A stretch of 64,000 nt of DNA from the NCBI RefSeq assembly GCF_009557455.1, contig NZ_CP045651.1, positions 2,666,001 to 2,730,000 of the forward strand, written 5' to 3'. The position numbers were made by a program, and so were the translations under genes. This document shows, one piece after another, positions 3,408 to 17,786 of this stretch (the first letter of the stretch is position 1; the number at the start of each line of letters is the position of its first letter). This DNA is from Alistipes sp. dk3624. Lineage in GTDB: Bacteria; Bacteroidota; Bacteroidia; Bacteroidales; Rikenellaceae. Under the pieces are notes generated by a model. The model saw nothing but the letters and a program-made list of their open reading frames with translations, had not been told where the DNA came from and did not search any database.

Positions 3408-4253
3408 TTATCCTTCGGCCAGCTCTTTCAGCAGCGCGATCTCCTGCGGCCAACGGGATTCGTCGGGCGTTTCGAGGATCAGCGGCATGTCGTCGAAACG
3501 CTTGTCGCGGGCGATGTAACGGAATACCGTCATGCCCAGCGTCCCTTCGCCGAGGCTCTGGTGCCGGTCTACGCGGCTTCCGAGCGGTTTCATCGCGTCG
3601 TTCAGGTGCATCCCCCGCAGGTAGCCGAATCCGACGACGCGCTCCAGTTCGTCGAACGTCCGGTCGCAGGCCGCCTCGCTGCCGAGGTCGTATCCGGCGG
3701 CGAAGGCGTGGCAGGTGTCGATGCAGACGCCCACCCGGCTTTTGTCTTCGACCCGTTCGATGATGGCGGCCAGATGTTCGAATGCGAAACCGACGTTGCT
3801 TCCCTGACCGGCCGTGTTTTCGATCACGGCCGTGACGCCCCGCGTCGCCGCGAGCGTCAGGTTGATCGATTCGGCGACCCGCCGGAGGCATTCTTCGATC
3901 GTGATTTGTCCCAGGTGGCTGCCCGGGTGGAAGTTCAGCCGGTCGAGGCCGAGCTGTTCGCACCGCCGCATTTCGTCGAGGAAGGCGGTGCGGGATTTGC
4001 GCAGCCCCTCTTCGTCCGGATGCCCCAGGTTGATCAGGTAGCTGTCGTGCGGGAGAATCTGTGCCGGTTGGTAATGATCCGTCCGGCAGTTCTCGCCGAA
4101 CGCTTCGATCGATTTGGGACTGAGCGGCGCGGCCGTCCACTGGCGCTGGTTCTTGGTGAAAAGGGCGAAAGCGGTCGCCCCGATGGTATGCGCGTTCAGC
4201 GGGGCGTTTTCTACGCCCCCCGATGCGCTGACGTGTGCTCCGAAGTATTTCAT
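3408..4253 (-). CDS. nfo: Endonuclease IV (AP endonuclease)
   Basis: 281 residues, the normal length for Nfo. It starts with [18 protein letters not shown] and contains the metal-binding motifs of the family: [61 protein letters not shown] and a final LETPDE. It cleaves DNA 5' of abasic sites in base excision repair, using three zinc ions. Divergent from the DUF3078 gene. No irregularity seen. Confidence 0.96.
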
Positions 4254-4374
4254 GACAAACGTTTAATTAGTTCGTTGACGCTGCCGGCAATCCGGGTCGT
4301 GTTTTCGCCGTTTTTCACGTCGCCTGCCGTCGGGATTCCGCAGGCGGCGACGTCGCCGGGAGACCGGCGTCGAA

Positions 4375-4463: not shown

Positions 4464-5468
4464 ATGAAACGGCTGAATTTACTTCTGATACTTGCAGGAT
4501 TCATAATGGTTTCGAACCAGGGTTTGGCGCAATTTTCCATTTCGAAAGTCCCCAGCGAAGCCGATACGCGGCTCAAAAAGGACTCCGTGAAACCCATCTC
4601 CGCCGTCAGCAACGAGTTTTTCAGCGAGGCCCGGTTCCGCGCTGAGAAAAGACGGTTGCGCAAGGAGCGCAATACGCTTACCTGCACGGTGGGACTGAAC
4701 CTGAACCAGACTAAATTCGACAACTGGGCACCGGGCGGCGTCAATACTTTTTCCGGGGTGGCCTCGTTGCTTTTTAATCATGTTTATCAGCGTGACCGGC
4801 TGCGCCTGGCGACCCAGTTGGATTCGAAATACGGGATGAACGTTATCTCGGGCAAAACCTTTAAAAATATCGACTATTTCATTCTCAACGTAAACAGCGC
4901 GTGGAACATATCGCGTTGCTGGGCCTATAGCGCCAGCGTCGACCTGCGCAGCCAGTGGACCAAAGGGTTCCGATCGGCGGACGATAAAACGATGGTCAGC
5001 AACATCATGTCGCCGGGTACGCTGGCGCTCGGCGTCGGTTTTACGTTCCGGGCGCTGAAAAAGGACAATACGGCGTGCAAAGTTCCGATCGTGATTACGG
5101 TCAACCCGTTGAGCGGTAGCATGACGTTCGTGCTGAGCGACACGCTGTCCAAACAGGGGGTTGCCGGAGTCGAGCCGGGCAAGCACCAGAAGAGCGCCCT
5201 GGGCTCGACGATGCGGATCGACCTGAACCAGCCGATCGCCAAAAGCAAGCTGAATTATATCACCTATTTTTACGTTTCCACCAACTACGAGAAAAATAAT
5301 TACGTGGAGTGGCAGAACACGTTGAATATCAAAATTACCCAAATCATCAACGCGAGCGCGTTCTGTCGGATGATCTACAACGAAGTGCAACCGACTCCTC
5401 GCAATAAGCCGTTGCAATGGAACTATACGTTCGGGTTGGGTGTTGCGTATACGTTCAAGAACAAGTGA
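4464..5468 (+). CDS. DUF3078 domain-containing secreted protein
   Basis: 334 residues with a clear signal peptide (MKRLNLLLILAGFIMVSNQG then LAQ). The frame is open well upstream, but the signal peptide and the -7 element at 4435-4442 fix the start here. The body has alternating beta strands, for example TVGLNLNQTKFDNWAPGG and RLATQLDSKYGMN, and ends in an aromatic-rich strand (GLGVAYTFKNK). This is typical of the outer-membrane-barrel-like DUF3078 family common in Bacteroidetes. Function unknown; likely outer membrane. Followed by the S41 protease gene 50 bp downstream. Confidence 0.82.
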   Translation: MKRLNLLLILAGFIMVSNQGLAQFSISKVPSEADTRLKKDSVKPISAVSNEFFSEARFRAEKRRLRKERNTLTCTVGLNLNQTKFDNWAPGGVNTFSGVASLLFNHVYQRDRLRLATQLDSKYGMNVISGKTFKNIDYFILNVNSAWNISRCWAYSASVDLRSQWTKGFRSADDKTMVSNIMSPGTLALGVGFTFRALKKDNTACKVPIVITVNPLSGSMTFVLSDTLSKQGVAGVEPGKHQKSALGSTMRIDLNQPIAKSKLNYITYFYVSTNYEKNNYVEWQNTLNIKITQIINASAFCRMIYNEVQPTPRNKPLQWNYTFGLGVAYTFKNK

Positions 5469-5518
5469 TGACGGAACGGTTTCTGCATAGGTGGCACGAT
5501 GCAAAAGAGATTTGAAGT

Positions 5519-7150
5519 ATGTATAAAAACAGTAAATTCACCATTATTCTGCCGGCGGTCGTAGCCTGTTCGCTGGTGGCGGGGGTTCTTTTGGGCGGCC
5601 TGGTTTTTCGCACGAGTCGTCCGGTCGTCCGGCGGCCCGCCCTGACGGCTCCGGGCAGCGACAAGATCAATCGGCTGCTGTCGCTGATCGGGACGCAGTA
5701 CGTGGACTCGGTTTCGATCGATTCGCTGACCGAACGGGTCATTCCGCTGATCCTCGATGAGCTGGATCCCCATTCCACGTACCTGTCGGCTCAAGATCTG
5801 TCGCGGGCGAAGGAGAGCATCGAAGGGGAATTCGACGGGATCGGGGTCGTTTTCAATATGGCGACCGATACGGTGATCGTGCTGAACGTGGTCAACTCGG
5901 GGCCGAGCGCCAAGGCCGGAATACAGGCCGGGGACCGCATCGTGACGGTGAACGATACCGTGGTGGCCGGCATTAAGATGCCGCAGGACAGCGTCGTGAA
6001 ACGGTTGCGCGGGCCGCGCGGCAGCCAGGTGACGCTCGGTATCCAGCGGGCGGGCGTAAAGGATCTGGTTCCGTTCGTCGTGACCCGCGACGCCATTCCT
6101 ATCAAAAGCATCGTCGCCGCCTACATGATCCGTCCCGAAACGGGGTATATCAAGTTCGAACAGTTCTCGATGAATGCTCATAAAGAACTGGCCGAAGCGA
6201 TCGCTCGGTTGAAGGAGCAGGGTATGAAAAAACTGATCCTCGACGTGCGCGGCAATCCGGGGGGATTGCTCGACCAGGCGATTTTGATATCGCGGGAGTT
6301 TCTTCCGAAAGGCAAAATGATCGTTTATACGCAGGATCGTGACGGGAACCGGGAGATCGAATACAGCGAAGGGAACGGCAAGTTTATGGACGAGGAACTG
6401 GTCGTTCTGATCGACGAGAACAGCGCTTCGGCGAGCGAGATTCTGGCCGGCGCGCTCCAGGATAACGACCGGGGAACGATCATCGGTCGCAGATCGTTCG
6501 GTAAGGGGCTGGTGCAGAATCAGATTCCGTTTCCGGACGGTTCGGCGGTACGGCTTACCGTCGCCCGTTACTATACGCCGACCGGACGTTCGATCCAGAA
6601 ACCGTACAGCAACGGACGCGAAGATTACTACAACGAATTGTTGTCGCGTTACCAGCACGACGAAATGTTTTCGGCCGACAGCATCCATTTTGCCGACAGC
6701 CTGAAATATACGACCGAGTCGGGACGCGTGGTGTACGGCGGAGGCGGGATCATGCCGGATATTTTCGTTCCGGTCGATACGACGGATATGACGCCCTATT
6801 TCCGCGAGGTCGCCGGGCGCAGCATCTTGTACAAGTTTACGCTGGAATTTTCCGACCGTTACCGCGGGCAGTTGAACAAGATCCGTTCGCTGGAAGAACT
6901 CGACCGGTTTTTCGACCGGCAGCCGAATCTGTTGAACGAGTTCGTAAGTTACGCGGCAAAAGCGGGCGTGGCGCCAAAGCCCGCCGAGATCGAGCGTTCG
7001 AAAGCGATCCTGCTGGCGCAGCTCAAGGCTTACATCGGCCGGAATACGGAGTTGGAGGACAATGCGTTCTATCACGAAATCCAGGGAATCGACAACGTGA
7101 TTGCCCGGTCGATCGAAGTGCTCGATTCCGCCGGGCACGCCGGATCGTGA
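5519..7150 (+). CDS. S41 family C-terminal processing peptidase (CtpA-like)
   Basis: 543 residues. An N-terminal signal anchor (IILPAVVACSLVAGVLLGG) is followed by a region containing LDPHSTYLSAQDL, a PDZ domain (about residues 90-170, including GIQAGDRIVTVNDT) and the S41 catalytic domain. The Ser is in ENSASASEILAGAL and the Lys in GRRSFGKGLVQNQ, the Ser/Lys dyad of carboxy-terminal proteases. A C-terminal extension of about 150 residues follows, as is usual in Bacteroidetes CtpA. Acts in the periplasm on C-termini of exported proteins. Confidence 0.93.
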   Translation: MYKNSKFTIILPAVVACSLVAGVLLGGLVFRTSRPVVRRPALTAPGSDKINRLLSLIGTQYVDSVSIDSLTERVIPLILDELDPHSTYLSAQDLSRAKESIEGEFDGIGVVFNMATDTVIVLNVVNSGPSAKAGIQAGDRIVTVNDTVVAGIKMPQDSVVKRLRGPRGSQVTLGIQRAGVKDLVPFVVTRDAIPIKSIVAAYMIRPETGYIKFEQFSMNAHKELAEAIARLKEQGMKKLILDVRGNPGGLLDQAILISREFLPKGKMIVYTQDRDGNREIEYSEGNGKFMDEELVVLIDENSASASEILAGALQDNDRGTIIGRRSFGKGLVQNQIPFPDGSAVRLTVARYYTPTGRSIQKPYSNGREDYYNELLSRYQHDEMFSADSIHFADSLKYTTESGRVVYGGGGIMPDIFVPVDTTDMTPYFREVAGRSILYKFTLEFSDRYRGQLNKIRSLEELDRFFDRQPNLLNEFVSYAAKAGVAPKPAEIERSKAILLAQLKAYIGRNTELEDNAFYHEIQGIDNVIARSIEVLDSAGHAGS

Positions 7151-7161
7151 CCGATTGCGCA

Positions 7162-7210
7162 TCTATAAAACGAACGGGCTACCGCTGCGGTAGCCCGTTC
7201 GTTTTATAGA
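7162..7210. terminator. Bidirectional terminator between the S41 protease and adk
   Basis: A perfect inverted repeat with 24-bp arms (7162-7185 and 7187-7210) around a single T. The GC-rich core ends in TTTT on either strand. It lies between two convergent genes and can serve both. Confidence 0.85.
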
Positions 7211-7223
7211 TCCGTTCCGTTTT

Positions 7224-7802
7224 CTATTTCAGGAGCGGGTCGATCTCGGCGCATAGGTTTCTGAATATCCCGTCGATATCTCCGGTGCCGTTAACGGCGC
7301 GGTATTTCCCCTGTTTTTTATAGTGTTCGGCTACGATGGCCGTTTGAGCTTTGTAAACGTCGATCCGGTTCCGGATGACCGATTCGCAGCGATCGTCGGC
7401 CCGGCCGCTGTCCTTGCTGCGGAGCAGGATCCGTTTGATCAGTTCTTCGTCGGGAACTTCCAGCGACAGTATCAGGTTGATCGGCGCGCCGTGCATTTCC
7501 ATGATTTTGTCGAACGCTTCGGCTTGCGGCGTGGTTCTCGGGAATCCGTCGAAAACGTTTCCCTTGCAGTCTTTGTGCTTGCAGACATACTCGGTTATGA
7601 TGTCGATAACCAATTCGTCCGGAGCCAGATGCCCCTTGTCGATGTAACTTTTCATACTTCGGCCCAGCGGCGATTCCTGCCGGATCTCTTCCCGGATGAC
7701 TTCTCCGGTCGAGATGTGGTGAAAACCGTATTTTTCGATCAGTTTGGCTGCCTGCGTTCCCTTTCCGGCCCCCGGCGGGCCGAACAATACAATGTTCAAC
7801 AT
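7224..7802 (-). CDS. adk: Adenylate kinase
   Basis: 192 residues. P-loop GPPGAGKGTQAAKL near residues 8-21, AMP-binding segments HHISTGEVIREE and FDGFPRTTPQAEAF, and a short LID (RSKDSGRADDR) without zinc cysteines, so this is the short form usual in Bacteroidetes. Catalyses ATP + AMP to 2 ADP in the cytoplasm. Divergent from thiL, with overlapping promoters. Confidence 0.97.
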   Translation of the reverse strand: MLNIVLFGPPGAGKGTQAAKLIEKYGFHHISTGEVIREEIRQESPLGRSMKSYIDKGHLAPDELVIDIITEYVCKHKDCKGNVFDGFPRTTPQAEAFDKIMEMHGAPINLILSLEVPDEELIKRILLRSKDSGRADDRCESVIRNRIDVYKAQTAIVAEHYKKQGKYRAVNGTGDIDGIFRNLCAEIDPLLK

Positions 7803-8946: not shown

Positions 8947-11118
8947 TCATTGCGCCTGCGGTACGACCGGCGTTGCCGCCGCGACGCTGTCCGCCGCGGG
9001 TTCGACCGGTTTGATCAGTCCCCGTTTGACCATCATCGGCGTAATGTCCGGGTCCTTGCCGCGGAAATTGCGGTAGAGTTCGGCTCCGTCCTGCGTGCCG
9101 CCGCGTTCGAGAATGTTTTTCCGGAAAGAGAGGGCGGTCGCTTTATCGAAAATGTCTCCGCTTTCGACGAATGCTTCGAAGGCGTCCCGGTCGAGTACCT
9201 CGGCCCATAAATAACCGTAATATCCCGCCGCGTAGCCGCTGTTGAAAATATGGTTGAAATAGGGGTAGCGGTAACGCGGTTCGATCTGTCCGATCAGTCC
9301 GCGCTTGTCGTTCAGCGCCTCTTTTTCAAAAGCTTCCGGATCGAACGGTTTGTAGTCTTCGATCGTATGGATGTCTATGTCGGACAGCGCCGCGGCTACC
9401 AGTTCCGTGGTGGCGAATCCCTGGTTGAACTGCCTGCTTTTGCGGATTTTCCGGATCAGGCTTTCGGGCATCGGCTCCCCGGACACGAGGTGCTTGGCGT
9501 AGAGCCGCAACATTTCGGGTTCGGTCGCCCAGTTTTCCATGATCTGCGAGGGCAGTTCCACGAAGTCGCGCTCTACCCGGTTCAGTCCGGCGTAGCGTAC
9601 CTGCGAAAATAGTTTGTGCAAGGCGTGTCCGAACTCGTGAAACAGCGTTTCGGTTTCGTCGAGCGTCAGTTGGGCCGGATCGCTTCCGTTCGGACGGGTG
9701 AAGTTGCAGACGATCGTGACGATCGGGGCGATGCGCTTGCCGTCCGTACCGTAGGATGCTTCGCGAAACGTGCCGCACCAGGCGCCTCCCCGCTTGCCGT
9801 CGCGCGGATAGAGGTCGAAATAGAGGACTCCCAGATGGGTATTGTCTTTGTCGAGCACTTCGTAGGCGGAACACTCCTTGTTATATACCGGAACCGAAAC
9901 CGGGCGGAAGGTCAGCCCCCACAGCCGGTTGCTAAGCTGAAAAACGCCCGATCGGACATTGTCCAGCGAGAAGTAGAGGTTGAGCGACGTCTGGTCGAGG
10001 TTATATTGCGATTTGCGGACTTTTTCGGCATAATACCGCCAGTCCCATGCGGCGAACGCGCTGTCCTGTGTCTCCTTCGCCTTGATCGCGCGCAGGGTCT
10101 CCAACTCCCGTTTCGCCGTATCGAGGGCGGGTTTCCAGAGTTTGTCGAGCAGGTCGTACACCCGTTCGGGAGTTTTCGCCATCCGGTCGTCCAGCACGAA
10201 GGCGGCGTAGGAAGGGTAGTCCATCAGGCGGGCTTTCTCGGTGCGGAGCCGGATGATGTCGTTGACGATCTGCCGGTTGTCGAACTGGTTGCCGTTGCTG
10301 CCGCGCTTTACGTAGCCGGTGTACAGCTTTTCGCGCAGTCCCCGGTTTTCGGCATAGGTTAGGAACGGGATCATGCTGGGCGGACTGAGCGTGAAAACCC
10401 ATTTGTCGGTCATTCCCATCTCTTTGGCCTTGTCTGCCGCCGCGTCGGTGACGGTCTGGGGAACCCCGCTGATGTCTTTCGAACTTTCGACGACGAGGGT
10501 AAAATCCCGCGTCTCGGCCAGCAGGTTGTTGCCGAATCGGACGCTCAGCAACGACAGTTCCCGGTTGATGTCGCGCAGCCGCTCCTTCTGCCGCGCATTG
10601 AGCTGCGCTCCGGCCCTGACGAACTGTTTATAGGTCTGTTCGGTCAGGCGGACCTGTTCGGCCGACAACGCGCTGCCGCCGATCTGTTCGTGCACGGCGC
10701 TGATTTTATCGAATAACTTATCGTTCAGGTAGATGTCGTCGTAATGGGCCGATACGGCCGGCGCGATCGCGAGGTCGGCCGCCTGCAGTTCGTCGTTGCT
10801 GTCGGCCGCTTTGACCTGCGCGAACGCGGCATACGCCTTTTTCAGCAGTTCGCCGCTACGGTCGAGCGCGGCGATCACGTTTTCGAAACTCGGCGCATCC
10901 GGGTTGGCGACGATCGAATCGATTTCGGCGGCGTGGTCGGCGATACCCTTCTCGATAGCGGGCTTATAGTGCCCGTTTTTGATTTTGTCGAACGGAGGAA
11001 CTCCGAACGGCGTATCCCACACGGTGAAAAACGGATTGGCGTCGGCCTGTTTCTTTTCACAGCCCGAGCCGGCTGACAGAACGGCGGTCATGAATGCGGC
11101 AATTAAAAAAAATCTCAT
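8947..11118 (-). CDS. dcp: M3 family metallopeptidase (Dcp/oligopeptidase A-like), lipoprotein
   Basis: About 723 residues from the start at 11118 (MRFFLIAAFMTAVLSAG, then SGCEKK). Hydrophobic segment plus Cys suggest a lipoprotein signal; an in-frame ATG at 11178 would put a charged stretch before it and lie beside the -7 element. The zinc motif HEFGHALHKLF with downstream E is intact. Other M3 landmarks are FREASYGTD and the C-terminal NHIFNSGYAAGYYGYLW. Probably cleaves dipeptides from peptide C-termini in the periplasm. Convergent with thiL, with 14 bp between the stops. Confidence 0.93.
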   Translation of the reverse strand: MRFFLIAAFMTAVLSAGSGCEKKQADANPFFTVWDTPFGVPPFDKIKNGHYKPAIEKGIADHAAEIDSIVANPDAPSFENVIAALDRSGELLKKAYAAFAQVKAADSNDELQAADLAIAPAVSAHYDDIYLNDKLFDKISAVHEQIGGSALSAEQVRLTEQTYKQFVRAGAQLNARQKERLRDINRELSLLSVRFGNNLLAETRDFTLVVESSKDISGVPQTVTDAAADKAKEMGMTDKWVFTLSPPSMIPFLTYAENRGLREKLYTGYVKRGSNGNQFDNRQIVNDIIRLRTEKARLMDYPSYAAFVLDDRMAKTPERVYDLLDKLWKPALDTAKRELETLRAIKAKETQDSAFAAWDWRYYAEKVRKSQYNLDQTSLNLYFSLDNVRSGVFQLSNRLWGLTFRPVSVPVYNKECSAYEVLDKDNTHLGVLYFDLYPRDGKRGGAWCGTFREASYGTDGKRIAPIVTIVCNFTRPNGSDPAQLTLDETETLFHEFGHALHKLFSQVRYAGLNRVERDFVELPSQIMENWATEPEMLRLYAKHLVSGEPMPESLIRKIRKSRQFNQGFATTELVAAALSDIDIHTIEDYKPFDPEAFEKEALNDKRGLIGQIEPRYRYPYFNHIFNSGYAAGYYGYLWAEVLDRDAFEAFVESGDIFDKATALSFRKNILERGGTQDGAELYRNFRGKDPDITPMMVKRGLIKPVEPAADSVAAATPVVPQAQ

Positions 11119-11927: not shown

Positions 11928-11938
11928 TTTGAAATTTG

Positions 11939-12502
11939 ATGAATACCGTTTTTACGATGCGTAAGTCGTTCGATTTGTTCTGGTCTTTCCTGAAGATAGG
12001 GATTTTTACGTTCGGCGGAGGATATGCGATGGTGGCCCTGATCGAGAAGGAGGTCGTCGACCGCCGGAGATGGGTCGAACGGACGGAATTTCTCGACCTG
12101 CTGACATTGGCCCAAACCTCGCCGGGAGCGTTGGCGCTCAATACCGCCGTTTTCGTCGGTTATAAGGTCGATGGGTACCGCGGGGGAGTGTGGTCGGTGT
12201 TGGGCGTAGTGGTTCCTTCGTTCGTCATTATTCTGGTCATCGCATTGTTTTTTGCGGAGTTCCGGCACGATCCGGTGGTCGAAGCCGTTTTCAAAGGGAT
12301 GCGGCCGGCGGTCGTCGCCCTGGTGCTGGCCCCCGTATTCAATCTGTCCCGGGGGATCGGGCCGGTGCGGCTGGGTCTTGGCGCACTGGCGCTCGGCGTA
12401 ACATGGTATGCGGGATTCTCTCCCGTCTACCTGATTCTGGTGGGAGCCCTGGCCGGGATCGGGTACGGGGTTTATCGCAAAAAGAAAGGGAAAGGATTAT
12501 GA
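11939..12502 (+). CDS. Chromate-type transporter, N-terminal half protein
   Basis: 187 residues with about five or six hydrophobic segments and the CHR signature FGGGYAMVALIEKEVV, then LAQTSPGALALNTAVFVGY. This is a short-chain CHR protein corresponding to one half of full-length ChrA. The downstream gene overlaps by 4 nt (ATGA) and encodes the other half, so a heteromeric transporter is likely. Chromate as physiological substrate is not established for such pairs. Starts at ATG 11939 rather than the preceding TTG. Confidence 0.9.
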   Translation: MNTVFTMRKSFDLFWSFLKIGIFTFGGGYAMVALIEKEVVDRRRWVERTEFLDLLTLAQTSPGALALNTAVFVGYKVDGYRGGVWSVLGVVVPSFVIILVIALFFAEFRHDPVVEAVFKGMRPAVVALVLAPVFNLSRGIGPVRLGLGALALGVTWYAGFSPVYLILVGALAGIGYGVYRKKKGKGL

Positions 12503-13023
12503 TTTACCTGCAACTGTTTTTATCCTATCTGAAGATCGGCTTTTTCGGTTTCGGCGGCGGTTATGCGATGTTGTCGTTGATCCAGCACGAGGTGGTGATC
12601 AGCCACCAGTGGATTTCGAACAGCGAACTGACCGATATCATCGCCATTTCGCAGATGACGCCGGGGCCGATCTCGATCAACAGCGCGACCTACATCGGCT
12701 ATGTCGTGACGGGGAATATCTGGGGCGCGATCCTCGCTACGTTCGCGGTCTGCCTGCCGTCCATAACGCTGATGATCGTGATCACGCGGTTTTACCTCGC
12801 TTTGCAGGACAACCTGTATATCAAAAGCGCGATGTTCGGAATGCGGCCGATGATCCTTGCGATGATCGGACTGGCCGGCGCGGTGCTTTTCACGCCCGAT
12901 ACGTTCATGGACGCGGCGAGCTGGGCGATCTTCGGCGTAGTGTTCGTGGCTACGCTGCGAAAGGTCGATCCGATCTGGCTGATCGTGCTGTCCGGCGTGG
13001 CAGGCTATCTGATATACGGATAG
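12499..13023 (+). CDS. Chromate-type transporter, C-terminal half protein
   Basis: 174 residues, paralogous to the preceding protein: IGFFGFGGGYAMLSLIQHEVV, ISQMTPGPISINSATYIGY and several membrane segments, ending in AGYLIYG. The start overlaps the previous stop as ATGA, indicating translational coupling. A decayed copy of its last third is found at 14634-14730 beyond an AT-rich islet, so this 3' end has been involved in a local rearrangement. Confidence 0.9.
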   Translation: MIYLQLFLSYLKIGFFGFGGGYAMLSLIQHEVVISHQWISNSELTDIIAISQMTPGPISINSATYIGYVVTGNIWGAILATFAVCLPSITLMIVITRFYLALQDNLYIKSAMFGMRPMILAMIGLAGAVLFTPDTFMDAASWAIFGVVFVATLRKVDPIWLIVLSGVAGYLIYG

Positions 13024-13127: not shown

Positions 13128-13163
13128 CGAAGAAGTTGCATTCGATCGAATGCAACTTCTTCG
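13128..13163 (-). terminator. Terminator of the beta-propeller lipoprotein gene
   Basis: Perfect 36-bp palindrome (18-bp arms meeting at 13145/13146), followed on the minus strand by six Ts (13127-13122). Lies 64 bp beyond the stop of the minus-strand gene ending at 13227. Confidence 0.8.
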
Positions 13164-13226: not shown

Positions 13227-14465
13227 TTAATCCGTATTGTCAACGATCTCTTTTTTTAACGTGAAAAAAGAGATGACGGGATTGTCGTCTTCTTTTATTG
13301 TTTGAGCTATTCTTCGTACGGTCGTATCGTTGCTCTTTTCCAGAATAACATGCATGTTTGTTCCGAATGTCAAAGGGGAGATCGCCGTGATAAAGGTATT
13401 TTCCGAATAGCATGTAGACGGACTATTCAGGTTGAGGCACGTTGATAGCGTCAATAGGTTGTCATCGAAATACCGGTAATAGTAAGTTCCCCGCTTTTTT
13501 TGTTTGTCCCAGATCAGTGTGTAATCCTGAATCGAAGGAGAATCTTTTGTTTTGCCGAAAGTAACTAACAAGTATTGCGGCGTTTCGAACAGGTTGGTAA
13601 CTCCCGAACTGTATCCGCTATCGAATAAGGTCTGCAACAATTCGAAGTAGTTTTTATGATTGTTTTGTTGCAAAAAACGCTCGTCCGGCAACGGATCTAT
13701 CATTTCTATCGAATACATTTCTGTTATTTGTTCCCCTTCGATCTGGTATATCTTGTTCGAAACAGATTGAATGAATGATAAGTTGTGACTACAGCGGGTG
13801 ATCGGATGGTTGGAGAATGTCAACAGTCCGGTATTCATAGACAGATTGCTTTGCAGAAAAAGATTCTTGACCTGATAACCGACTGCATCGGCCAAGCCGT
13901 ATTGAAATGCCGTATTGTCTTCGAGCGAGGGATTGGTTATAAAAAAGTTGCATAGCAGGGAAGTGCTGTCAGCCATCTCGATATCGGCCATGTAATTATA
14001 GATAGGATCGATTGGTGTTTTGCTTTTAAAATTTCCGGAATAATCGTACTCCAACGCTTTACGCGTATATCCGTCGATCAATATGATGCTTTTGCGGTAC
14101 CGATTCAGAAAAAACGCAGATATTGTATTGTATTCGTTTCCGGATCTTCCTCGTTCCCCGATTTGGGCTATGAATCTTCCTTCGTTGCTGAAGGCGTATA
14201 TGGCCCGTCCGTCGTAAATAAATAATGTGCTATCCTGATATTTGATTTTTTGGATGTCTTTCAGCAAGCATTTTTCATGTGTTTCCAAAGGTACATATTT
14301 GATCTGGTCGATCAATGCGGCGCTGTGTACTTCTTCGACTATATTGCATTGCCCTCGGGAGATAACGATTGAACGGTCGCTGTTTATTTTGATATTTTGT
14401 CCCGGCGTACAACTTTGCCATCCGATGAAGCTAAATAATATTCCAATGCAAACCCGTATTCTCAT
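13227..14465 (-). CDS. 6-bladed beta-propeller lipoprotein
   Basis: 412 residues. The N-terminus MRIRVCIGILFSFIGWQSC looks like a lipoprotein signal with Cys at position 19. The body has recurring propeller blade motifs (DIQKIKYQDSTLFIYDGRAIYAFSNEG, quoted here only by its landmarks DIQKIKYQD and AIYAFSNEG; RFIAQIGERGRSGNEY) as in BF3164-like/6-bladed proteins of Bacteroidetes. Usually anchored in the outer membrane; function unknown. The gene is clearly AT-richer than its neighbours, stands alone with its own promoter and terminator, and is bracketed by the chromate transporter end and a copy of it, suggesting acquisition. Confidence 0.8.
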   Translation of the reverse strand: MRIRVCIGILFSFIGWQSCTPGQNIKINSDRSIVISRGQCNIVEEVHSAALIDQIKYVPLETHEKCLLKDIQKIKYQDSTLFIYDGRAIYAFSNEGRFIAQIGERGRSGNEYNTISAFFLNRYRKSIILIDGYTRKALEYDYSGNFKSKTPIDPIYNYMADIEMADSTSLLCNFFITNPSLEDNTAFQYGLADAVGYQVKNLFLQSNLSMNTGLLTFSNHPITRCSHNLSFIQSVSNKIYQIEGEQITEMYSIEMIDPLPDERFLQQNNHKNYFELLQTLFDSGYSSGVTNLFETPQYLLVTFGKTKDSPSIQDYTLIWDKQKKRGTYYYRYFDDNLLTLSTCLNLNSPSTCYSENTFITAISPLTFGTNMHVILEKSNDTTVRRIAQTIKEDDNPVISFFTLKKEIVDNTD

Positions 14466-14505: not shown

Positions 14506-14633
14506 GATATAAATACATGTGCTTTAACTTGTTTTTGTTTTTTTTATGAGAAATTTGTGGTTGTGGATCAAATGTCCATTGCTTTCAGATCTTGATTGCC
14601 TGCCAGATCGTCTGTTTTGTCTCGTCCTGTAGC

Positions 14634-14730
14634 AATCTGTATATCAAAAGCGCGATGTTCGGAATGCGGCCGATGGTACTTGCGATGATCGTGCTGTCCG
14701 GCGCGGCAGGCTATCTGATATACGGTTTGT
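14634..14730 (+). pseudogene. Remnant of a chromate transporter 3' end
   Basis: Bases 14634-14690 match 12811-12867 of the intact gene with 3 mismatches in 57. Bases 14691-14725 match 12985-13019 with 1 mismatch in 35. The 117 bp between these blocks are missing, an exact multiple of 3, with TGATC shared at both breakpoints. The remnant still reads in frame from NLYIKSAMFGMRP to AAGYLIYGL and a stop at 14728-14730. No start codon or upstream half is present, so it is a relic. Confidence 0.85.
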
Positions 14731-14949
14731 AAAAAGTGTATAACCTGTTTATAAGTTGTTCGACTCTGTTCATAAATCCGGGAGATACCGGAGGAAGCTG
14801 TTGGAAATCTTTTCCGTTTTTCGGATCGGGCATGTGTAAAACGGCGATATCCAGTTGTTTATCCGTATGTAGGTTATGAACCGTTTTCGTTTTTCGCTTT
14901 AAGATTGTTTTTCGCCCCCCGAAACGACAAAAATTAATCGATTAAAAGA

Positions 14950-15019: not shown

Positions 15020-15373
15020 ATGAAAAAGTATTTTCTGGATGTGCTGAAATTGCAGTATGCTGATTTTAAGGGCAGGGCGTCGCGCAGGCAGTTCTGGATG
15101 TTCGTTTTGTACAATGTGATCGCCGCCGTGATCGTCGGGATTATCGGCGGTATCGTCGGACTGAACGCGATCCTGAGCGGTTTGTACAGTTTGGCGTTGT
15201 TGATTCCGTCCCTGGCTATCTCCGTAAGGCGGTTGCAGGATATCGACAAGGAGTGGTACTGGATTTTGATCAGTTTGATTCTGCTGGTGGGGAGCATCTG
15301 GTTGATCGTTCTTTACTGCCAGCCCGGCACGCCGTCGGACAACCGGTTCGGAAAAGTGCCCGACGCCGAATAA
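15020..15373 (+). CDS. DUF805 family inner-membrane protein
   Basis: 117 residues with three hydrophobic segments. DUF805 hallmarks: FKGRASRRQFWMFVLYN at the N-terminus, SLAISVRRLQDIDKEWYW in the middle and the C-terminal CQPGTPSDNRFG. Similar to E. coli YhaH; function unknown. Own promoter and a strong terminator make it a single-gene unit. Confidence 0.92.
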   Translation: MKKYFLDVLKLQYADFKGRASRRQFWMFVLYNVIAAVIVGIIGGIVGLNAILSGLYSLALLIPSLAISVRRLQDIDKEWYWILISLILLVGSIWLIVLYCQPGTPSDNRFGKVPDAE

Positions 15374-15517: not shown

Positions 15518-16264
15518 TCAGGTATTCATCGCTCCGCAAACGTGGATTACCTGTCCGCTGACGTACGACGACAGGTCGGATGCGAGGAACAGGGCTACCT
15601 TGGCCACGTCTTCGGGCGTACCGCCGCGACGCAACGGAATCTGTTTGGCCCATTCGGCCTTTACTTCGTCCGACAGCGCATTGGTCATATCGGTAATGAT
15701 GAAACCCGGCGCGATCGCGTTGGCGCGGATGCCGCGGGGACCCAGCTCTTTGGCGATCGACTTGGCTAGACCGATCAGGCCGGCTTTCGAAGCGGAGTAG
15801 TTGGTCTGTCCGGCATTGCCCGAAACGCCCACCACCGACGCCATGTTGATGATGCTGCCGCTTTTCTGCTTCATCATCACCGGCGTTACGGCATGGATGA
15901 AGTTGAATGCGGATTTCAGGTTCACGTTGATAACCATATCCCACTGCTGTTCGCTCATGCGCATCATCAGGCCGTCGCGGGTGATCCCGGCGTTATTGAC
16001 CAGTACGTCGATGCGACCGAAATCCTTCACGATCTGAGCCACCACGCCGGCCGTATCTTCGAAGTCTGCGGCGTTGGAGGCATATCCTTTGGCCTTGACG
16101 CCGAGCGCCTGCAACTCTTTTTCCGTGTTCTGGAAATTTTCGTCCACTTTCAGGTCGGTAAAGACGACCGACGCGCCCTCTTCGGCAAACCGCATGGCGA
16201 TTGCCTTCCCGATTCCCCGGGCGGCTCCGGTCACGATAGCGACTTTTCCTTCAAGTAATTTCAT
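15518..16264 (-). CDS. fabG: 3-oxoacyl-[acyl-carrier-protein] reductase
   Basis: 248 residues, the normal FabG length. Rossmann motif VTGAARGIGKAIA at the N-terminus, NNAG near residue 88, catalytic Ser in INMASVVG and YxxxK in NYSASKAGLIGLAK, then the PGFIITDMTNAL loop of FabG. The C-terminus YVSGQVIHVCGAMNT ends as HVCGAMNT where most FabG have HVDGG-M. Reduces 3-oxoacyl-ACP with NADPH in fatty acid synthesis. Confidence 0.93.
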   Translation of the reverse strand: MKLLEGKVAIVTGAARGIGKAIAMRFAEEGASVVFTDLKVDENFQNTEKELQALGVKAKGYASNAADFEDTAGVVAQIVKDFGRIDVLVNNAGITRDGLMMRMSEQQWDMVINVNLKSAFNFIHAVTPVMMKQKSGSIINMASVVGVSGNAGQTNYSASKAGLIGLAKSIAKELGPRGIRANAIAPGFIITDMTNALSDEVKAEWAKQIPLRRGGTPEDVAKVALFLASDLSSYVSGQVIHVCGAMNT

Positions 16265-16505: not shown

Positions 16506-17786
16506 ATGGTAAGGGATGAAAAACTATTCGGATTGATCGAGAGCGAAAAGCAGCGGCAGTTGCACGGTATCGAGTTGATCGCTTCCGAGAACTTTGTAAG
16601 CGAGCAGGTTATGCAGGCGATGGGTTCCGTGTTGACTAACAAATATGCCGAAGGGTATCCGGGGGCGCGTTATTACGGCGGTTGCGAAGTGGTGGATCAG
16701 GTGGAGCAACTGGCCATCGACCGTCTGTGCGAGTTGTACGGCGCCGAATACGCTAACGTGCAGCCGCACTCGGGAGCGCAGGCGAACATGGCCGTTTTCC
16801 TGACGGTGCTCAAGCCGGGCGATACTTTTATGGGGCTCGATCTGGCGCACGGCGGTCATTTGTCGCACGGTTCGCCGGTCAACACGTCGGGTATCCTTTA
16901 CAATGCGATCGGCTACAAGCTGAGCGAAGAGACCGGAACGATCGATTACGATGCGATGGAACGTCTCGCCCTCGAACACAAACCGAAAATGATTATCGGC
17001 GGCGCGTCGGCGTACAGCCGCGAGTGGGATTACAAGCGGATGCGCGAGATCGCCGACAAAGTGGGCGCGCTGCTGATGGTCGACATGGCGCATACGGCGG
17101 GCCTGATTGCCGCCGGGCTGCTCGACAATCCGGTGAAATACGCTCATATCGTTACTTCGACCACCCACAAAACCCTGCGCGGCCCGCGCGGCGGCGTGAT
17201 CCTGATGGGTAAGGACTTCGAGAATCCGTGGGGAGTCAAGACTCCGAAAGGGGAGATCAAGAAGATGTCCGCTATGTTGAACTCGGCTGTTTTCCCCGGC
17301 ATCCAGGGCGGCCCGTTGGAACATGTGATCGCCGCCAAAGCGGTCGCTTTCGGCGAAGCGCTCGATTCCTCTTACAAGGAGTATCAGGCGCAGGTGCAGA
17401 AAAATGCGAAGGCGATGGCTGCCGCATTCGTAAAGCGCGGTTACAAAATCGTATCGGGCGGTACGGATAATCACCTGATGCTGATTGATCTGCGTACCAA
17501 GTTCCCCGACCTGACCGGAAAGCAGGTCGAGAAGGTGCTGGTAAAAGCCGATATCACGACCAACAAGAATATGGTGCCGTTCGACAGCCGCTCGCCGTTC
17601 CAGACTTCGGGTATCCGCGTCGGGACGCCGGCCATTACGACCCGCGGTTTGAAAGAAGACCAGATGGAAACGATCGTAGAACTGATCGACCGGGTGTTGT
17701 CGGATATCGACAACGAGTCGAATATCGTTGCCGTACGGAAAGAGGTCAATACGTTGATGGCGAAATATCCGTTGTTCGCCTGGTAG
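16506..17786 (+). CDS. glyA: Serine hydroxymethyltransferase
   Basis: 426 residues. Canonical SHMT motifs: [61 protein letters not shown] and the PLP-lysine region [15 protein letters not shown]. Converts serine and tetrahydrofolate to glycine and 5,10-methylene-THF. Single-gene unit with a terminator downstream. Confidence 0.98.

Follow-up and report, generated by a model that had tools for sequence, protein, structure and literature searches.

Rhs loci carry strings of displaced 3′ ends that adjoin swapped modules, which form the tips of polymorphic toxins, while integron arrays consist of unlike cassettes that are split by a recurring repeat and lie next to an anchor. Site-specific integration at the 3′ ends of genes yields a layout of restored gene, insert and displaced end. 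Arrays of T6SS immunity genes in Vibrio cholerae have been attributed to sequential displacement, with a mechanism akin to homology-facilitated illegitimate recombination being proposed, and the same paper also mentions orphan 3′ ends of Rhs and compares the T6SS arrays with integron cassette arrays (PMC5361080). In homology-facilitated illegitimate recombination, one homologous anchor and one non-homologous join import foreign DNA, as outlined in PMC3240628 and PMC2884548, and a study of pneumococcal merodiploids indicates that transformation can duplicate DNA via canonical recombination (PMC3784515). How bacteria acquire short AT-rich islets that lack mobility genes has so far been mostly guesswork, and a recurrent scar that keeps the old end of a neighbouring gene would offer a handle on the route and order of insertion, and perhaps on its age.

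The window, which is the whole 64-kb stretch of DNA analysed from Alistipes sp. dk3624 (genome of 3.02 Mb in one contig), carries a displaced copy of the end of a chromate-transporter gene on the far side of a beta-propeller gene. The features of this locus are listed below by position in the window, with chrA1 and chrA2 being the names that we take to apply to the two transporter halves.

11936..12502, + strand: chrA1, first chromate-transporter half gene (PF02417, E 5.6e-50)
12502..13023, + strand: chrA2, second chromate-transporter half gene, intact, taken as the source of the repeat (PF02417, E 4.8e-48)
12810..12868, + strand: left repeat block within intact chrA2
12869..12985, + strand: 117 bp of intact chrA2 that the remnant lacks (the gap can be placed equally well in seven ways, of which this is one)
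12980..13019, + strand: right repeat block within intact chrA2, including the second TGATCG copy
13128..13163, strandless: perfect 36-bp palindrome between chrA2 and the propeller gene (fold z −5.9)
13227..14465, − strand: 6-bladed beta-propeller gene (DUF5128/DUF4934), putative inserted cassette gene (PF17170, E 6.9e-37; PF16288, E 3.9e-10)
14633..14732, + strand: remnant, a 5′-truncated chrA2 3′ end with a 117-bp deletion, 4 mismatches and its own stop
15020..15373, + strand: DUF805 membrane protein gene (PF05656)
15518..16264, − strand: fabG-type reductase gene, conserved right border of the variable interval (PF13561)

Both transporter halves exceed the PF02417 cut-off, with the profile spanning most of the protein, and the propeller scores 127.8 bits against PF17170 (cut-off 22.9), its Pfam matches being to propeller families only. 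Other ORFs of at least 50 aa in the chrA2-fabG interval overlap the propeller gene, the DUF805 gene or the borders and look spurious. The palindrome is likely a two-way terminator serving both chrA2 and the propeller gene; it was also considered as a repeated element and rejected, having a single occurrence in the genome. The GC content of the islet is 39–42% against 56% for the whole window, so the AT-rich islet beyond which the original prediction had placed the remnant is real; the aligned copy is flanked by DNA of 31% and 38% GC, and the remnant is thus embedded in the AT-rich stretch and does not mark its end.

The copy had been described as 92 bp long with four mismatches; the mismatch count stands and the length is 93 bp, with 14633–14725 aligning to 12810–13019 across a single 117-bp deletion. 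That this deletion is in frame and lies between microhomologies was confirmed by the alignment, the repeats being TGATCG at 12863 and 12980 with a single copy left at 14686, and the break may fall anywhere in this 6-bp stretch. The four changes occupy codon positions 3, 1, 3 and 2 and alter two amino acids (I to V and V to A), and the frame (NLYIKSAMFGMRPMVLAMIVLSGAAGYLIYGL*) is open through the remnant's own stop, also correctly foreseen, which is the TAA at 14730–14732. The right limit of homology (13019/14725) lies in the last codons, where the intact gene reads GGA TAG and the remnant GGT TTG TAA, and to the left of the remnant there are about 20 bases of weak likeness only. The aligned positions fall on either side of 13227–14465, and the intact chrA2 end and the remnant do bracket the propeller gene as had been claimed. 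A search of the whole genome returned the two repeat blocks at E 4.5e-24 and 1.3e-12, far past chance, and no third copy of the repeat at E ≤ 0.001, while self-comparison of the window (E ≤ 1e-6, at least 35 bp) gave these two blocks only, with looser settings adding the expected likeness between the transporter halves. The predicted fold of the DNA across the remnant end (14700–14800) is no more stable than that of shuffled versions (z 0.4).

We consider it probable that the remnant is an insertion scar, left when foreign, propeller-carrying DNA entered by recombination anchored in the 3′ end of chrA2. In outline this reading is supported, the observations being the repeat, the bracketed propeller, the lack of both islet and remnant in the relatives compared, and the recurrence of the layout at valS, 5S and clpB. 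DNA with the propeller gene would have come in beside chrA2, with recombination in the chrA2 3′ end as the anchor, one end joining by homology and the other without it, as in homology-facilitated illegitimate recombination; integration, by one crossover, of a circular molecule that bears a gene end would be an equivalent route. Either would leave chrA2 whole, followed by the propeller islet and then by another chrA2 end that is truncated at its 5′ side, since a single homologous join in a gene end would be expected to yield an intact gene, an insert and a 5′-truncated end. The downstream end would then have lost 117 bp via slippage between the TGATCG repeats and gained point changes. We infer the recombination route, which of the two copies is native, and that the deletion followed the duplication.

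The relatives compared were eight congeners, of which G004 is 69% and G008 79% complete, so that genes may be missed in them. Full-length relatives of chrA2 were obtained from six of the eight at 66–84% identity, and the remnant was absent from all congeners searched, with the best matches to the repeat reaching 86% over 42 bp and 79% over 52 bp. The original prediction had named two findings that would tell against it, the same arrangement, remnant included, in all distant relatives and two full-length transporter copies elsewhere; neither was borne out, as the only other matches, in G001 and G006, proved to belong to the transporter genes themselves and the genome holds no further full-length copy. 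No close relative of the window propeller was detected in 60 other genomes (the best-scoring match has 27% identity, with shorter ones up to 35%), distant propellers being present in several congeners, and the islet DNA found only a 48-bp match, in two of 267 other genomes of the family. In viral contigs, the exact patterns of the shared part and of the remnant had no match and no relative of the propeller was confirmed; a phage collection contained two records matching the transporter at 73% and 79%, and plasmid records included two with 22% identity to the propeller.

It had been expected that, without the islet, the transporter would be followed directly by the DUF805 gene. This expectation failed: no such site was seen, and the DUF805 gene occurs in none of the eight congeners, two of which are less than 80% complete. 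Nor was any empty site at the window locus found among the congeners compared, which are of other species. The fabG-type gene is next in line in the sister species G003 and G005 (96% identical), and the chrA2-fabG interval there is filled by other genes; the interval is therefore variable, and the expectation of an empty site could not be satisfied as phrased. The G005 interval holds an HxlR regulator (PF01638) and a PfpI-family protein (PF01965), and the sister-species interval L017 shows the HxlR/PfpI pair as divergent genes at 5639–5998 (−) and 6129–6686 (+). Of six congener transporters, three (G002, G006 and G007) show the anticipated LIYGL-type ending, YGL, while G001 has YG and G003 and G005 have YA; the remnant could accordingly be the native end, though this is no proof of it. 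The broader claim, that the islet is linked to a scar of duplication or replacement, agrees with the findings and is strengthened by recurrence beside other propellers, only its empty-site expectation having failed. Sliding identity against the congeners, inspected for a sign of which copy is native, displayed no mosaic break in chrA2, valS or clpB; this counts against the scar reading, and the donor of a replaced end, if there was one, would therefore have been very near the species.

The genome contains 25 DUF5128 propellers by Pfam and 27 such ORFs by a custom-built profile. Thirteen stretches around propellers were analysed (11 plus 2), L136 being contiguous with L137; adding the window gives a total of 14 stretches and 300 kb. 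Displaced ends of other genes were found in two of the 13, leaving 11 of the 14 stretches (window counted) without any, a point against the scar reading. The two arrays are as follows, in positions of each stretch.

L136 (G000:C1:1205000-1224900), 4841-7489: valS, then a propeller gene
L136, 9624-9720: valS remnant 1, then two propeller genes
L136, 12977-13073: valS remnant 2, stop lost, then a propeller gene
L136, 15443-15553: copy of the 5S rRNA gene, then a propeller gene, the 5S gene (17623-17735) and the 23S gene
L141, 3186-5777: clpB, then two propeller genes
L141, 9688-9867: clpB end with terminator (80.6% identity), then a propeller gene

The identities of valS and ClpB were taken from NCBIfam. 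Over 97 bases, 15 differences from the gene were counted in valS remnant 1 and 19 in valS remnant 2, and the extra 5S rRNA copy, which is decayed and lies beyond a propeller downstream of the rRNA operon, scores 55.9 against 85.7 bits in Rfam. Strong hairpins follow valS remnant 1 (z −5.7) and the clpB remnant (z −5.6), unlike the window remnant, which is the least diverged of the five displaced ends in the genome (chrA2, valS twice, 5S and clpB). The valS array in L136 comprises several unlike modules split by displaced ends of the anchor gene, the window having one module. Congener regions downstream of valS (eight) and clpB (six) contain no propeller (0/14), with one valS region offering a contig edge only. 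In G001, folB lies within 450 bp after clpB, and in this genome it lies beyond the array (PF02152 in both). In G004, the valS stop lies 93 bases into a contig (L226 1-93), whose edge is thus close to the point where the valS remnants start; an assembly break at a repeat would explain this, though it may be chance. A six-propeller array was also observed in L143 (5441-13573), whose first and fourth proteins are 87% identical and whose intergenic stretches are repeated.

Copying of whole units would not explain the recurrence, as the propellers would then be as alike as the gene ends are. In local alignments, propeller pairs are 23–38% identical in L136 and 23–30% in L141, and propellers after intact and after displaced ends share 27–33%, against about 80–88% for the gene ends; at the window, unit duplication is inapplicable because there is one propeller only. 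The differing sites were also compared with relatives. At the 15 sites of valS remnant 1, seven relatives share the intact base at 5–8 and the remnant base at 5–6, which fits an allele rather than a decayed copy, whereas at the 19 sites of valS remnant 2 relatives match the intact gene at 7–14 and the remnant at 2–6, so that this copy looks decayed. The nine sites of the clpB copy are mixed (intact 2–6, remnant 1–6), and the changes in the chrA2 remnant are too few for such a comparison.

As a control, 32 stretches of 20 kb (640 kb) were spread by hand, not at random, away from propellers, and these contain 38 AT-rich islets, defined as having less than 46% GC per kb. No gene-end copies were detected in the 640 kb, which gave two repeat pairs, one intragenic and one between two genes. 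Displaced ends thus occur in 3 of 14 propeller stretches and at 0 of 38 control islets (p 0.016), or in 2 of 13 when the window is left out (p 0.06). The enrichment beside propellers is modest and partly post hoc, since the idea came from the propeller stretches themselves. The repeat filter dropped pairs with less than 75% identity, those shorter than 35 bp and those with copies less than 300 or more than 6000 bp apart, and older scars would therefore be missed; pairs with both copies inside propeller genes were dropped as well, and in L136 and L143 the pairs between leader peptides, between intergenic stretches and between propellers appeared in the output but were not counted as gene-end copies. 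These results bear on a rival explanation, in which the 3′ end of chrA2 was first duplicated in plain tandem and the propeller islet later entered between the copies as an unrelated event. No congener sequence comes near the likeness that the two copies have to one another, and their only four differences are compatible with decay of a self-copy; however, the same coincidence would be required at valS, 5S and clpB, each time beside propellers, with none in the control, and we regard this course of events as rather unlikely.

Site-specific integration of a mobile element at the gene 3′ end, with the displaced end marking the far attachment site, would give just the layout expected of such elements, and yet it appears improbable. 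The propeller and DUF805 genes are the only ones in the chrA2-fabG interval that are not overlapped by a larger gene, and no recombinase gene was found in this insert, where those two were profiled. The targets moreover differ (a transporter, a tRNA synthetase, a chaperone and 5S rRNA), and by eye the repeats share no common core and the left edges of the remnants no common motif. We give very little credence to retention of the remnant for a function, for example as a tiny membrane peptide from the hydrophobic 25-codon frame between the ATG at 14655 and the stop at 14732, for though the deletion is in frame, the frame open and the I to V and V to A changes still hydrophobic, a deletion is in frame by chance one time in three, an open frame is expected with four changes, the remnant is absent from congeners, and the clpB copy has suffered a one-base loss.

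Generality of the scar design past this genome is not supported. No clear end of a housekeeping gene was found near propellers in 40 stretches from ten other genomes. In 20 of these stretches (G003, G005, G007, G020, G022, G027, G032 and G034), a filter that required one copy to lie in a non-propeller ORF of at least 150 aa retained five repeat pairs: three in G022, one in G020 (a bracketing repeat, in an ORF without a Pfam match) and one in G007 (bracketing no propeller), with two of the three G022 pairs representing the 5′ end of an efflux-protein gene (PF02321). In the stretch L194 of G022, the 5′ end of the outer-membrane efflux gene is repeated at 4117-4305, 5839-6106, 9119-9386 and 13804-13997, beside successive propeller units. 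The 20 stretches of G058 and G059 gave five pairs at 75% identity or more, namely a 385-bp repeat in L272 of G058 (90%; 137-521 and 6146-6530) that brackets a propeller region and has no Pfam match, a 42-bp pair that brackets a propeller in L274 of G058, two pairs in G059 that amount to one long gene pair, and a 37-bp pair beyond a propeller. The efflux 5′-end repeats of G022 and the 385-bp repeat of G058 count against a strict restriction to this genome.

NVEALA-like peptides are encoded upstream of many propellers in the genome, 10 of 27 by a strict motif search, which overlooks variant forms of the kind present in L134 and L140, and motif search found none upstream of the window propeller. 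When ten small ORFs were compared with the NVEALA profile, seven gave hits at E ≤ 0.1, with scores of 15.4–26.5 bits that are all under the curated cut-off of 27. The literature searched contained nothing on NVEALA or DUF5128, nor on tandem duplication of propellers in Alistipes, and titles and abstract openings on 6-bladed beta-propellers of Bacteroides gave no pointer to such cassettes. One guess is that the cargo pairs a propeller at the cell surface with a peptide that is exported. With the scar as a marker, it becomes possible to test how the little-studied propeller and NVEALA-type genes have spread among Bacteroidales. More speculatively, and with only a slim chance of being right, the ends of housekeeping genes may serve as handles for recombinase-free cassettes, the propeller and peptide units excising and re-entering when an intact end and one of its displaced copies recombine by homology; if so, unlike cassettes would pile up as arrays downstream of chrA2 and of the essential genes valS, clpB and 5S rRNA, like an integron run by RecA.

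Compared with the systems described, the insertion scar proposed here resembles integron arrays in its unlike cassettes, recurring repeat and anchor, and differs in that no integrase was seen in the window islet and the repeats are the ends of a few genes. It shares with Rhs loci the displaced 3′ ends adjoining swapped modules, whereas Rhs modules are polymorphic toxin tips and here the ends belong to housekeeping genes and the Pfam matches of the window propeller are to propeller families only. The homologous anchor of homology-facilitated illegitimate recombination would correspond to the chrA2 end on both sides of the islet, with the same layout at valS, 5S and clpB; this process has been described for naturally competent species and from conjugation in E. 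coli, and duplication of the anchor is an extension that we propose. Sequential displacement in the T6SS arrays is the closest parallel to the propeller-cassette scars. In both, an incoming module settles beside an anchor that is conserved, the former 3′ end is pushed downstream and dissimilar modules accumulate in arrays (PMC5361080), but the displaced end there is the effector's own and here it comes from unrelated housekeeping genes, including an rRNA gene. The cargo differs as well, being here a propeller gene, often with a small gene for an NVEALA-like peptide. The recurrent form found in this genome is an extension of a known kind of displacement to the ends of housekeeping genes.
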